From: a virus
Virus record (IMG/VR): IMGVR_UViG_3300030108_001163
Span: 1-25,785 of that record
Length of the DNA: 25,785 nucleotides
Reading direction: 5' to 3' (one strand)
The notes under the pieces were generated by a model. That model did not search any database and was not told the origin of the DNA. It saw nothing but the letters and a program-made list of their open reading frames with translations. Every line of letters starts with the position of its first letter. The stretch's first letter is position 1. Made by a program: the position numbers and the translations under genes. Positions 14,489 to 23,467 of this stretch are shown here, piece by piece.

Positions 14489-14995
14489 TTATTGATCAGC
14501 AAACGCGGGGGCTGTTGCGCCCGTCACAGTGCCAAAAATCTGATAATTGGTGGTGTTCAGGCCAACGATAGTTACGTCAAAACCAGCAGGAACATTTATC
14601 TGAATACTGCTGTTTGAGTTACCGTCAGAAAACACTGCGCTGACTTCATTGTCTGTATCCAAGAAAGTCACGCCGCCTATGTAGAAGTTGGTGTTTCCTG
14701 GGGTAACGATAAGCGCATCCGTGCCGTCTGCCGCACCGCCCGCGTAAACAAACCGAAACACTGATCCCGCAATAGGCGCAGGCAAAGTGTAGGTGTTGTC
14801 TTGACCACCGTCTGGAACAAGAAGAATCCTGCCACTGTGGGTCGCATTAGTGAGCGTTACATTACCGTCAGCAAGGCTTACAGGGCCGTCACCAAGAGTA
14901 GAAACCTCTGTAATGGTGCCCGTGGTAGCGTTTTTGCTTACGGTTTTGAAGGTGCTTTCGGAACGCACGGGTCCCGAGAAAGTAGAATTAGCCAT
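14489..14995 (-). CDS. Virion structural/decoration-type protein, 168 aa
   Basis: The ATG at 14995 has AGGAGA upstream. The protein starts MANSTFSGPVRSESTFKTV, followed by Thr/Ser/Gly/Val-rich beta-like segments, RILLVPDGGQDNTYTLPAP, and an end in FGTVTGATAPAFADQ. The N-terminal MANSTFSGPVRSExGFK is a pattern I know from capsid-associated proteins in marine phages, next to the major capsid gene. The gene is first after the major-capsid terminator and lies just downstream of the palindrome at 15025-15040. It may be a head decoration or fibre protein. No enzyme motif. Confidence 0.75.
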   Translation of the reverse strand: MANSTFSGPVRSESTFKTVSKNATTGTITEVSTLGDGPVSLADGNVTLTNATHSGRILLVPDGGQDNTYTLPAPIAGSVFRFVYAGGAADGTDALIVTPGNTNFYIGGVTFLDTDNEVSAVFSDGNSNSSIQINVPAGFDVTIVGLNTTNYQIFGTVTGATAPAFADQ

Positions 14996-15024
14996 GTCTG
15001 TCTCCTGTCTTGGCTGGTGTCTAA

Positions 15025-15040
15025 TGTTCCACGTGGAACA
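15025..15040. promoter_or_regulatory. Perfect 16-bp palindrome matching the parS consensus
   Basis: TGTTCCACGTGGAACA is a perfect palindrome and fits every fixed position of the widely conserved chromosomal parS consensus (TGTTnCACGTGnAACA), the binding site of ParB. It lies between the major capsid terminator (15051-15073) and the ATG at 14995. Flanking CTAA and TTAG extend the dyad with one unpaired A. Other readings are an operator for another dimeric regulator, or a hairpin in a 5' leader. It has no T tract of its own. Confidence 0.6.
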
Positions 15041-15050
15041 ATTAGTCAGG

Positions 15051-15073
15051 AAAAAGCCGCCCGAAGGCGGCTC
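15051..15073 (-). terminator. Strong rho-independent terminator after the major capsid gene
   Basis: On the minus strand AGCCGCC, a TTCG tetraloop and GGCGGCT form a perfect seven-pair stem, followed by a T run. It begins a few bases after the capsid stop codon. It should end most transcripts coming from the capsid module. Confidence 0.9.
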
Positions 15074-15079
15074 TAGTTT

Positions 15080-15985
15080 TTAAGCACCGGGGGTGCCAAA
15101 CACACAACGCCAGTCAGAAACTCCAAAACTGTAACGCTCACGCGCCTTGAAGCGCATGTTGCCAGTGTCAAAGTCACCTTCCATGGCAGTCTTGATCGGG
15201 CTACGGTTAAACAACTTGAAGCCGTTAGGTGCATCCGTCTTGATGAAGAATGCATCTGTATCGGTCAAAAAGTGGTTTACAACAGCGCCGTCAGGGAGCA
15301 TTCCCATAGACTTCAATGCGTTGGTGTCGTTGTCCGCTGTTCCCGAGCGAAGGTTAGAGTTGATAACTCTTTCTGCAATAAATTGCAGTTCTTTCGGGAT
15401 AATCAGCTTCATGCCACGAACAGCAATCTTCAAGCCACGCTCATCGGTGAAGCCCGCGATATCAATCATCATCTGCTCCAGCGAAGTCTCATTGAGATCC
15501 GCAGCAGTAGACAGAAGGTTTCGCTGGTTACCCGACAGAGACGGGTGAGCGGCTGAACACAAAGCAGCACCGTCCCCTACGGGGAAAGTAGTATCAAAAG
15601 CATTGTTCAAAATAGACGCTGCTTTGATCTGCTTGGTTTGTGACATAGATCGTGCCAAAGCACGGGTGTAGCGAGACGCCAGACGATCATAAAGATTGTC
15701 TTCGATTGCCTCTTCAGTGATGCTGAAGGCAAGAGCAATTGTCTCGTGCGTATAACGTGCAGTGAAAGTCTCCTGCGCGTCATCAAACGAGATTGCACCG
15801 CCTTCTGACTTAACCGGCGCAGTGCCGAAGCCAGACAGCATTACCTCTTCTTCAAAAGCACGGTCTGAGGTTTCTTCTTCAAAGATCTCAGAATGCTCTT
15901 GCTCGTAGCGATCATACTCAAGGCCGAAGAGAGCATTCAGTCCGGGCTCAAGCTCCTTCGCCAGTTGTGCGCGAGAAATAGCCAT
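15080..15985 (-). CDS. Major capsid protein, Mu gpT-like / HK97-fold type, 301 aa
   Basis: The ATG at 15985 has GGGAG upstream. The order MAISRAQLAKELEPGLNAL, then EYDRYEQEHSEIFEEETSD, YTHETIALAFSITEEAIED and LYDRLASRYTRALARSMSQ, with DGAALCSAAHPSLSG, follows the Mu-like major head subunit gpT family. These elements would correspond to the E-loop/spine-helix region and the P-domain of an HK97 fold. It ends in YSFGVSDWRCVFGTPGA. It sits after a scaffold-like gene and before a strong terminator, as expected for the most abundant virion protein. No N-terminal pre-sequence cleavage is evident. The link of a gpT-type capsid with a P22-type portal is known in marine phages only from memory. Confidence 0.85.
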   Translation of the reverse strand: MAISRAQLAKELEPGLNALFGLEYDRYEQEHSEIFEEETSDRAFEEEVMLSGFGTAPVKSEGGAISFDDAQETFTARYTHETIALAFSITEEAIEDNLYDRLASRYTRALARSMSQTKQIKAASILNNAFDTTFPVGDGAALCSAAHPSLSGNQRNLLSTAADLNETSLEQMMIDIAGFTDERGLKIAVRGMKLIIPKELQFIAERVINSNLRSGTADNDTNALKSMGMLPDGAVVNHFLTDTDAFFIKTDAPNGFKLFNRSPIKTAMEGDFDTGNMRFKARERYSFGVSDWRCVFGTPGA

Positions 15986-17160: not shown

Positions 17161-18078
17161 TCACTCCTTCACATATTTCGCGTATTCTTCAAGCGGCACT
17201 CCCAATTTTTTAGCAATGGCAACTTGGGTCTGGGAGAGTCGAACCCTTTTGCCGCGCCCAGATGAACTGGAGCGTGAAACACCAGCCACAGCCTGAGTAG
17301 GTCTACGACTAGCTGATTGATCTTCTCCAAATTTATGCGGAAACTCCCGCTTAATTCTGGAATCTAGCTCAGTATAATAGTCATCACTCTGAGGATCAAA
17401 TCCTTCATCCTCTATTAATTTTTTATGTATTCCAAACGCAGCAAAAGTCATTGCCTCGTCTTGACCAAACCAAGAATTACGGCCCGCCCAGTCTTCTGCT
17501 TTGGCGTCAGGTCTAATCGGTTGTTGAGGCTGTTGGGGCTGTTGGTAAGCCTGTGGTTGTTGATATTGCTGATTTTGTGCAGTTTGTTGGTAAGCTTGGG
17601 CTTGCCGTTGCGCGGCAGAATAGTTGTTTGCGGCCACAGAAACGTCTGTGAGGGCTTTTTGTGCGGCAACGGTCCCGTCCGCATCCCCAAGCTCTACCGC
17701 CCGTTTTAACGCCGCCTCTGCTTGCTGTTGCTGTAGTGCCAAACGGTTGCCATATTCAGACATATACCCTTGGTCTAAATTTTCCATCCGTTGACGAAGT
17801 TGTTGAGCCTCGCTTTGGACATTTTTAGCGTAAGTTAGAGCCTCTTCTCGCTCTCGCTCCGCATCGCGCATTTTTTTAGTCAGACGATTGATGCGTTTTT
17901 GCACAGATTCACTGTACTGCTCCATTTCCGCCTCTGCCCCTGGAGCTGAGTCTTCTGAAACAGAGACTTCTGCGACTTCTTCGGTGTTTTCTTCTTCCGA
18001 AACAGGGACTTCTATTTCCGTTTCTTCTGCATCCCCTACTTCTAGCTCAAATTGAGCGTTTTCCGCAGCATTTGCCAT
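17161..18078 (-). CDS. Scaffolding-like protein, 305 aa
   Basis: The ATG at 18078 has AGGAGG upstream. The first 55 residues are very acidic (EEENTEEVAEVSVSED), followed by a long coiled coil at about residues 55-130 (RINRLTKKMRDAEREREEA), a Gln/Ala-rich section (QQYQQPQAYQQPQQPQQP), and a basic end KRVRLSQTQVAIAKKLGVP with LEEYAKYVKE. An acidic and coiled N-terminus with a small basic helical C-terminus that can bind coat is the plan of P22-type scaffolding proteins. Its place one gene before the capsid genes agrees. Homology is by pattern, not by search. Confidence 0.8.
   Translation of the reverse strand: MANAAENAQFELEVGDAEETEIEVPVSEEENTEEVAEVSVSEDSAPGAEAEMEQYSESVQKRINRLTKKMRDAEREREEALTYAKNVQSEAQQLRQRMENLDQGYMSEYGNRLALQQQQAEAALKRAVELGDADGTVAAQKALTDVSVAANNYSAAQRQAQAYQQTAQNQQYQQPQAYQQPQQPQQPIRPDAKAEDWAGRNSWFGQDEAMTFAAFGIHKKLIEDEGFDPQSDDYYTELDSRIKREFPHKFGEDQSASRRPTQAVAGVSRSSSSGRGKRVRLSQTQVAIAKKLGVPLEEYAKYVKE
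17164..17169 (-). promoter_or_regulatory. Shine-Dalgarno AAGGAG for the ATG at 17155
   Basis: AAGGAG lies within the end of the scaffold-like gene, eight bases before the ATG at 17155. It decides among three possible starts (GTG 17164, ATG 17161, ATG 17155). Confidence 0.65.
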
Positions 18079-18092
18079 GCTGATTACCCTCC

Positions 18093-18539
18093 TTACAGAC
18101 TAAGAATATCCTCGGGATCGTCAATAACAGCAAGAATCTCATCATCATTCAAGATCCTGCACTCGCCACCCTCTATGCGAAACCGAGAACCCGCATAACG
18201 AGCAAAAATAACCCATTGTTTTTCTTGGCACCAAGGCCCGTCTGGAAATTTTTCTTCGTCTTTGTAACAAAGGGAGCCTTGTTTTACGACATACCCCACT
18301 ACCGTTTGTATTTGAGTGTCATCTAACACTTTAGTGGGTATGTAAATGCCGCCATCTGTGGTTTCTTTACCACGATACGGCAAAATAAGCATTCTCCACC
18401 CGGTGGGTGTGGGCATTCTGTCCAGCAAACTTTTATCCATAGCCGCTGGATCAAGAACTTTTGGTTGGGGTGCCTTATATAAGCTTTTTATGCCTTCTTC
18501 GGCACTTTCAAGATCGACTGTCTCCGCTAAATCAGTCAT
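18093..18539 (-). CDS. GroES-like co-chaperonin (Cpn10 family), 148 aa
   Basis: After a ~45-residue acidic N-terminal extension, residues 47-145 follow the Cpn10 fold: GWRMLILPYRGKETTDGG, IYIPTKVLDDTQIQT in the mobile-loop place (GGIYIP at 63-68 matches GGIVLT of GroES), VVGYVVKQG, then WCQEKQWVIFARYAGSRF and CRILNDDEILAVID. The roof-loop section (SLCYKDEEKFPDGPW) is longer than in GroES. The ATG has AGGAG eight bases upstream. It stands just before the scaffold and capsid genes, so it probably forms a cap on host GroEL for capsid folding, like T4 gp31. No GroEL gene is in the window. Confidence 0.87.
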   Translation of the reverse strand: MTDLAETVDLESAEEGIKSLYKAPQPKVLDPAAMDKSLLDRMPTPTGWRMLILPYRGKETTDGGIYIPTKVLDDTQIQTVVGYVVKQGSLCYKDEEKFPDGPWCQEKQWVIFARYAGSRFRIEGGECRILNDDEILAVIDDPEDILSL

Positions 18540-21031: not shown

Positions 21032-23467
21032 TCACTCTCCTCTTTTTAACAATTCACGTTGCAGAGCGGCATCAATACGTGCCTGCGTCTGACGCTCTTG
21101 ACTAGCAAGCCTCTGCTGGAACTCAGTGGCCTTATTTTGCATACGTTGCTGGTCGAGTTGCAACTCCGCTTGATCCATCTGAGCATCCTGCTGCATCTTC
21201 TGCTGATCCATCTGAAGCTCTTGTTGCTTCAATTGTATCAAAGGATCGGGACCTTGGTTTTGACCACTAACCTGTGCAGAAAGTTGCTTGAGCTTCTGGA
21301 ACTCCTGTGCGTTGATCTGAGCGGTCATGGCCTCCAACTGAAGCTCTTGCTCGGGATTAAGGGGTTGACCCCCTGTTTGTTGAAGCATTTGCGCCGTAGC
21401 CATTTCCTGGGACTTTAGCTTCACATGCTCAATTACATGCTTCTGTAACAAGATGGGCACTTGCGGGATGGTTTGAAGCGTGGGCGCTGTAGCAAAAACC
21501 AAGTGCGTCATAATATGAGCATCGTGATCTTGGCCCTCAAACGCTTTCAACTGAACCATATCTAGTACATCGATATTTTCTTGCGCTGGATCTTTTGGTA
21601 TCGGATCTTCCGAAGATGGGGCAATCAATATCTTGTCAATATCATTGACCCCCAACGCCTCATACATACGACGATACGCCTCGTGCATATCATGCATTTG
21701 TGGGGCTTGCATGGCCATCTCAAGCTGAGACTGCGCCATTGCTATACGTTGAGCCTGTGAAAAAGTGTTTGGGTTGGAGACAGGTATAACATCTACGCGA
21801 TCATCGAAGTCTTCTCGCATGATCGTGCGGTCACCACCAGATACAGCATACGGGTACTCTTGCGGCAGATACTCCGACATCACCCGAGCCAACAGCCTGA
21901 ACTCTTGCTTCATGCTGTAGTGCAGACGTTTGTGGACTGCACTCATGACCCGTGAGCCCTGTTCCAACAACGCCACTGTAGTGCCCACAGCAGCCTGTTG
22001 ATTGCCGTCCCCTACCTTCATGTCGGTTATGGTGGCAAAACGCCGTCCTGCGTCCACCACGAAGCCCAGAAGCTGCATCAGGGTGCCGTCCGGCCCCTTG
22101 AAGGGCAAAGGCATCAAAGAATCACGGATCGCGCCACCCGGTGCGTCTACGTCTCTAAACTCACCCGGTTGCAAAGGCTCTTCATCGTCACGTACCCGTA
22201 GACCCCTAGCCTTAAAACCCGCAGGTAGATTGGACAAGGTGCCCGCATCAATAAGCTGACGCAACGCCGCGGTGGCTGTTCTGGACAAACCACCAATCGT
22301 GTGAATCAAACCAAGGCCATAAAACCCAAAACCCGGTAAAAACTTGTAGTGAACAAAATATTGTATCTTTTTCTTACGGTCATCATCTTCCCTGAAGTTG
22401 CGTCTAATTGACAGTATCTGACCGTTATCTTCGCTTATTGTGACGATATACGGGACTTTGATGCCCGTTGGCTCGCCATCTTCCCCCATGTCTTCAAAAC
22501 CAGACAAGTCTAAATTGACGTGGCACTCCAAAAGAGTGCAGTCATAATCCAGATTACTGGGCTCCATGCCCTCTAACTTGTCCAACTCACCTGAAATCTG
22601 ACCATCGTCAGACTGAGATGGAATAACAGAGATGTCCCTATAGAACCCCATGACCTGTCTAATCCGCAGATCATTCAAAGACATCTTCACAACCTGCGTA
22701 ATGTTTTCACACGAATCAAGGTCCGTGGCCCCATAGGGCACCACAATGTCCTCCGCCGGGACAAACTTGCTTACCGCCCGGTCAATCGCCTCGTCAAAGT
22801 ACACTTTCTTGAAAGTAGACCCTGCCAAAGGCAAGTAAAACAACATTTGATCAAACTCAGGCGTGTACTCGTCCATCACATTCGTGATGTAGTAGTTCAT
22901 AAACTCTTTGACACGAAACGCCTGCGCCTCATTGCTCTTGGTTTTTTCACCTACAACAGAGGTGCGAACAGGACCAGAAGGGGGCAAAAGCTCGTTGAAC
23001 GCCTGCGCCTGAAACTGTGTGGCAGCTTCTGCAAGCAAGGGGTGTGTCACACCCGTAGCGCCACGAAAAGGCATCGTGCGCTCTTCGTAGTTGTAGCCCA
23101 GAAGCTCCAAGCCCTTGGAATAAGCGTCTTCCCACTCAGAGCGAGAGGATTTGTTAGACTCAAAGTCCTCCAGTAGTTTGGAAGAAAGGGCTCCAAGTTC
23201 CCGGTCATCTAACTCTTCTGCTAAGTTCTCATAAAAATCGCCGCTGCTCAGTCCCATCATCGCCATGGGATCAAGGTCAACGATGACACCCCCATCATCC
23301 TGGGGCTCAATCTCTATGCCTTCTGGCAAAATATCGTTAACAGAACCTACAAAAGTGCCGGGAGCCGCGATCTCTATATCAAGCTCCATCTCGGCTTCTT
23401 CTACTTCAGGCGCTGTTGTGCTGTCCATCAAGGACGAAAGAAGTGCTTTATCGTCACCGTTTGCCAT
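21032..23467 (-). CDS. Portal protein, P22-like, 811 aa
   Basis: The length and order match P22-type portals. After an acidic N-terminus there is SSRSEWEDAYSKGLELLGY, then ERTMPFRGATGVTHPLLAE and FQAQAFNELLPPSGPVRTS, FYLPLAGSTFKKVYFDEAI, AEDIVVPYGATDLDSCENI, VHYKFLPGFGFYGLGLIHT and DMKVGDGNQQAAVGTTVAL, typical of wing and clip/stem parts. The last ~150 residues are a Gln-rich helical region (LKQQELQMDQQKMQQDAQM, then QERQTQARIDAALQRELL), like the long helical barrel of P22 gp1. The portal forms the DNA-entry dodecamer of the head. The start has no strong Shine-Dalgarno (AAGG only). Confidence 0.92.
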   Translation of the reverse strand: MANGDDKALLSSLMDSTTAPEVEEAEMELDIEIAAPGTFVGSVNDILPEGIEIEPQDDGGVIVDLDPMAMMGLSSGDFYENLAEELDDRELGALSSKLLEDFESNKSSRSEWEDAYSKGLELLGYNYEERTMPFRGATGVTHPLLAEAATQFQAQAFNELLPPSGPVRTSVVGEKTKSNEAQAFRVKEFMNYYITNVMDEYTPEFDQMLFYLPLAGSTFKKVYFDEAIDRAVSKFVPAEDIVVPYGATDLDSCENITQVVKMSLNDLRIRQVMGFYRDISVIPSQSDDGQISGELDKLEGMEPSNLDYDCTLLECHVNLDLSGFEDMGEDGEPTGIKVPYIVTISEDNGQILSIRRNFREDDDRKKKIQYFVHYKFLPGFGFYGLGLIHTIGGLSRTATAALRQLIDAGTLSNLPAGFKARGLRVRDDEEPLQPGEFRDVDAPGGAIRDSLMPLPFKGPDGTLMQLLGFVVDAGRRFATITDMKVGDGNQQAAVGTTVALLEQGSRVMSAVHKRLHYSMKQEFRLLARVMSEYLPQEYPYAVSGGDRTIMREDFDDRVDVIPVSNPNTFSQAQRIAMAQSQLEMAMQAPQMHDMHEAYRRMYEALGVNDIDKILIAPSSEDPIPKDPAQENIDVLDMVQLKAFEGQDHDAHIMTHLVFATAPTLQTIPQVPILLQKHVIEHVKLKSQEMATAQMLQQTGGQPLNPEQELQLEAMTAQINAQEFQKLKQLSAQVSGQNQGPDPLIQLKQQELQMDQQKMQQDAQMDQAELQLDQQRMQNKATEFQQRLASQERQTQARIDAALQRELLKRGE

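Follow-up and report, generated by a model that had tools for sequence, protein, structure and literature searches.

We found that the palindrome TGTTCCACGTGGAACA, at positions 15025–15040 (no strand assigned) of the viral record analyzed here (25,785 bases, hereafter the window), is a parS site under selection rather than a chance match, as judged from comparison with the DNA of related phages. From these comparisons we also infer, with good confidence, that the palindrome is a parS that recruits the ParB protein of the host. What we observed is the site itself, how strongly it is enriched, how it moves from place to place, which letters it prefers, and that no ParB domain could be detected; binding by host ParB is inferred. 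A sequence-only reading made earlier had noted that the 16-mer fits all fixed positions of the parS pattern TGTTNCACGTGNAACA and had put a chance match at about 1 in 10,000. Both statements hold: the match is perfect, and the expected number of chance matches is 25785/4^14, or ~1e-4. The search of the record for further copies, which that reading had proposed, gave none, since TGTTCCACGTGGAACA occurs once in the 25,785 bases, and the next best match in the window has three mismatches, which is chance level.

The main genes near the site are on the minus strand, and no tRNA was found in the window. Read on that strand, the order is the major capsid protein gene (15080–15985; PHROG phrog_371, major head protein, E 2.3e-21), an intrinsic terminator identified from the sequence (GCCGCCTTCGGGCGGC and then a T run, approximately 15052–15072), CCTGAC, TAATTGTTCCACGTGGAACATTA, GACACCAGCCAAGACAGGAG, and the start of a gene of unknown function (14489–14995; phrog_36974). 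The palindrome is thus intergenic, between the capsid-gene terminator and the next gene, as had been stated. The terminator hairpin is given as GCCGCCTTCGGGCGGCTTTTT in the window, and a hairpin and T run of like kind are found 3′ of the capsid gene in relatives. An outer CTAA/TTAG dyad flanks the palindrome; a single base on one of its sides is unpaired. Also on the minus strand are the portal protein gene that defines the family (21032–23467; phrog_1216 portal, E 5.4e-57), a gene at 17161–18078 that in four relatives (L123, L124, L257, and L262) holds a second parS site absent from the window copy, and a phage-encoded Cpn10 (GroES-like) co-chaperonin (18093–18539; Pfam PF00166, E 1.8e-8).

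Exact parS letters were counted in 160 relatives that had been fetched solely by capsid or portal similarity, without use of parS (1.28 Mb with near-duplicates masked), with 419 other palindromes, made by permuting the half-site of TGTTNCACGTGNAACA, as the control. We found 13 exact sites for TGTTNCACGTGNAACA, whereas the control palindromes averaged 0.012 and never exceeded 2, a family-wide enrichment over matched palindromes of about 1000-fold. It is this difference, and not the single copy in the window, that raises the site above chance. Because some of the 13 sites are homologous, they count as roughly seven independent placements, and after masking just 10 of the 160 loci, most of which are short fragments, have the exact site. 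Portal relatives taken from bacterial bins, a set apart from these, had 2 exact sites in 478 kb, while all 419 controls scored 0. In the whole viral contig collection, a backwards control pattern matched 34 stretches, compared with at least 120 for the parS pattern; 24 among the 120 viral contigs listed for the parS pattern encode capsid or portal relatives, while no such relative is among the 34 control stretches, and whole-record searches of all family virus records gave no match to the backwards pattern. A chance match is rejected by the matched-palindrome counts in relatives together with the backwards control across viral contigs.

The parS pattern was also seen outside the family. Several non-family viral contigs hold three to five exact copies, mostly clustered (L033:2657-3444, L032:6637-6894, L016:5525-12145, and L121:276-910), and ParB_N was absent in 46 of the 48 non-family parS contigs examined (L121 not included). 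Distant portal relatives (32–37%) hold clusters of five copies (L089:10535-11462) and three copies (L103:240-961). Two contigs with a microvirus capsid (Phage_F) match the pattern as well (L012:3842-3857 and L050:1966-1981), for which chance is possible given the size of the collection.

Within the family, five of the seven relatives that reach 40 kb or more, all from records obtained without parS selection, have one or two exact copies (G010, G029, G075, G145, and G166), and the exact site is absent from the other two (G036 and G067). The portal protein is 54.0% identical to that of Pelagibacter phage HTVC027P, which has one outer-letter variant (CGTTTCACGTGAAACA), and 54.5% identical to that of HTVC023P, which has a poorer match. 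Alcaligenes phage vB_Af_QDWS535, a named relative, carries the exact site; no site was found in CRP-901, CRP-902, the Caulobacter phages RW and GB2A, or other named relatives. Since G036, G067, and several isolates carry none, the family does not depend on the site. In a search of 84,980 species, the portal gene appeared in no isolate genome and solely in MAG and single-cell contigs, so there is no firm host or lysogeny evidence for an integrated prophage, and we regard that possibility as unsupported.

Among relatives, the 16-mer stays constant while its flanks and positions vary, the outcome that the sequence-only reading had named as support for a protein site. It lies in a leader RNA in the window, after the terminator in L123, L125, L257, and L313, in an acidic segment of one gene in L123, L124, L257, and L262, in other genes in L275, L306, and L322, and between genes in L329, L331, L386, and L387; some family copies are not palindromic. 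In the acidic segment, which is the variable N-terminal part of the homologue of 17161–18078, the site appears as an extra DVPRGT or NVPRGT peptide, and close relatives such as L125 lack the extra VPRGT peptide. In L275, L306, and L322, coding sites in different genes translate to VPRGT or VSRGT. Of the V[PS]RGT translations in the family, 33 are spelled with parS letters and 8 are not (both strands and non-coding frames counted). The prevalence of parS letters in the spelling of these peptides, together with the extra peptide present in one gene, points to selection on the DNA. We reject a selected VPRGT peptide, because most copies keep the exact parS spelling while the peptide itself can change to VSRGT. 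The condition that the sequence-only reading had set for refuting its parS proposal, a 16-mer not kept in near relatives, was fulfilled in part. In L122 (near 1915–1935), whose capsid protein is 99% identical, the site reads TGTTCCACGTAGAACA, with a changed core and most of the RNA hairpin kept, and L124 has no site at this spot; on the other side, the exact letters are kept in L123, L125, L257, and L313, and L124 has a copy in another gene.

The letters left free by the pattern follow a preference of their own. Both are pyrimidines in both half-sites in 30 of 30 exact family sites among the parS matches listed and in 19 of 19 sites of the set fetched without parS (not de-duplicated), compared with 15 of 34 for the control pattern; this preference is that of marine bacterial chromosomes. 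One-mismatch family sites mostly have the outermost letter alone changed (CGTT, AGTT, or GGTT), comparable to Pelagibacteraceae chromosomes with AGTTTCACGTGAAACA, and most sampled Pelagibacteraceae have a single TGTTTCACGTGAAACA or AGTTTCACGTGAAACA per genome. The window's own letters, TGTTCCACGTGGAACA, occur in SAR86 and Methylococcales genomes. The phage letters match marine bacterial parS, and these bacteria are likely hosts, although which of them the window phage infects is unknown. Compared with the chromosomal parS of bacterial ParABS systems, the phage sites share the 16 bp and the preference shown at the two free positions but are scattered among structural and neighboring genes, with no parAB alongside. 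In Pseudomonas aeruginosa, one parS can be enough for segregation (PMC4368675).

We searched the phage records for a ParB of their own. ParB_N (PF02195) gave nothing above the cut-off in 28 records, among them relatives of 54–69 kb, and ParB-HTH (PF17762) was not found in 20 records; both searches were positive in Caulobacter and B. subtilis controls. Both domains are absent from the window, a fragment record, in agreement with the earlier statement that it contains no parB. ParB_N matched weakly within an open frame of 972 residues (G021:C1:2510-2704, L142 record, locus L248), at 22.4 bits against a cut-off of 26.3. Thus, a ParB of the phage's own was not found as the binder in the records searched, although, because the window record is a fragment, one elsewhere in the genome of this phage cannot be excluded. 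Host ParB is the likely binder because no phage ParB domain was found and the same letters occur in marine bacteria, and we consider it highly probable that host ParB binds the phage site, an inference made without binding data. The sequence-only reading had proposed a parS that recruits host ParB, and this proposal is supported by the roughly 1000-fold enrichment and by constant letters in changing flanks and positions, as well as by the correct free-position preference and the failure to find a phage ParB domain.

The palindrome is best explained as a genuine parS belonging to marine phages of a lineage akin to the HTVC023P-type pelagiphages. ParB is known to load at parS as a CTP clamp, to spread, and to couple DNA to ParA (PMC12704722); host ParB would most likely load on the phage parS in this CTP-dependent way, as a clamp that spreads over phage DNA, and a phage genome with one or two parS sites would be coupled to the host ParABS system as cargo or as a rival. 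One or a few phage copies could then be positioned and, in slowly dividing hosts, handed to daughter cells before lysis. That partition or positioning is the benefit of the site is an inference we hold only tentatively; it is nevertheless the benefit we favor, ahead of rivalry with the host centromere and, after that, of effects on compaction or transcription. A partition role is odd for phages without visible lysogeny. Other points weigh against recruitment of host ParB in general: the core of the L122 site is changed despite 99% capsid identity, sites are missing in some relatives, exact sites are few among the 160 loci, and the window comes from a fragmentary record of a phage with an unknown host.

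An alternative that accepts host ParB binding differs on the benefit: many phage parS copies would divert host ParB and stall host segregation and division, aiding lytic growth. Because most sampled Pelagibacteraceae show a single parS-like site, a phage with one site would outnumber the host parS once replicated, and the parS mimics of SGI1 both stabilize that element and displace its IncC helper (PMC10954446). However, most phage genomes hold one or two sites, where arrays would be expected of a decoy, and host segregation is of little importance close to lysis; we therefore regard diversion of host ParB as unlikely, while keeping it in view. Less probable again is that loaded host ParB, possibly with SMC, compacts phage DNA or damps nearby transcription for packaging or late-gene control. 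In its favor, the longer records have their sites between about −15 and +8.5 kb of the portal start, where some of the distances assume a circular record; terminase, portal, and capsid genes are found in this region, and in the window the site belongs to the leader of a gene of the structural module. This closeness to the portal start is a post hoc tendency only, with no unbiased complete-genome set behind it, and the sites are not bound to one promoter or gene and fall on either side of the capsid gene.

The remaining alternatives dispense with ParB. Palindromes are frequent targets of phage repressors, and one of the sites precedes a gene, within a leader region, as might an operator recognized by a phage-encoded regulator other than ParB. 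Such a regulator would not account for letters and free-position preferences equal to those of host chromosomal parS, and in-gene sites at shifting positions are unlike one operator; we consider this explanation very improbable.

The other such alternative starts from a leader RNA of the Mu-gpT-DE family (RF03012), which cmscan places at 14993–15051 on the minus strand (45.4 bits compared with a gathering score of 49, E 1.4e-9) and at whose ATG the gene at 14489–14995 starts. L123, L125, L142, and L157 pass the gathering score, and near relatives reach 62–70 bits. Among 80 capsid relatives, the corresponding gap is usually made up of CCTGAC, a hairpin whose letters vary, GACACTAGCCAAGACAGGAG, and the start codon of the following gene. 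In the window and in L122, the parS palindrome takes exactly the place of this variable hairpin, and the window palindrome is predicted to fold as one. The CTAA/TTAG dyad, noted earlier as an extra element, is indeed present and is explained, because its bases are the foot of the hairpin. The palindrome might then be merely the Mu-gpT-DE hairpin, with an accidental likeness to parS, and the base change in L122 adjoins the loop. Against this, L123, L125, L257, and L313 have the RNA with its own ordinary hairpin and carry the 16-mer earlier and outside the RNA, directly after the terminator T run, so that near relatives hold the 16-mer in two different places. Further sites are inside genes or are non-palindromic variants, the exact letters are enriched about 1000-fold over other palindromes, and parS is no feature of the RNA family, whose hairpin letters are unrelated in most relatives. 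The RNA hairpin that the sequence-only reading had offered as a simpler option is thus real locally, in the window and L122, but is rejected as the full explanation; we give an accidental likeness almost no credence. A different, longer conserved leader, GGGCGTAACT...TTTGTAGACAGG...CACCTGACATTGCACGGACTACAAAGC, follows the capsid gene in L131, L133, L149, and L168 and is possibly a pseudoknot version of the Mu-gpT-DE leader.

Returning to a parS that recruits host ParB, we found no earlier report, in open-access papers only, of chromosomal-type parS in phages lacking ParB. We lean toward the view that a large group of abundant marine phages without visible lysogeny, and apparently some unrelated phages too, carry the chromosomal centromere of the host without ParB and, in infected cells, ride or jam host segregation. 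If host ParB does load, members of an abundant marine phage group would tap the chromosome-segregation system with 16 bp alone, and this would offer a concrete handle on the positioning or retention of phages without visible lysogeny genes in slow-growing marine hosts. Mycobacteriophage RedRock, an extrachromosomal prophage with its own ParA and ParB and a parS made of an array of 8-bp direct repeats (PMC7157519), likewise has centromere sites on phage DNA; unlike RedRock, the family described here has a 16-bp chromosomal-type site and no ParB that we could find. The parS-like sites of SGI1 hijack the ParABS system of IncC plasmids and can both stabilize SGI1 and oust the other replicon (PMC10954446). 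In that case a helper plasmid is the source, and binding of ParB has been demonstrated, whereas the phage site is of chromosomal type, no lysogeny is seen, and binding data are lacking. SGI1 is nonetheless the closest precedent, as a mobile element that carries the parS of another replicon and exploits its ParB and partition system (PMC10954446).
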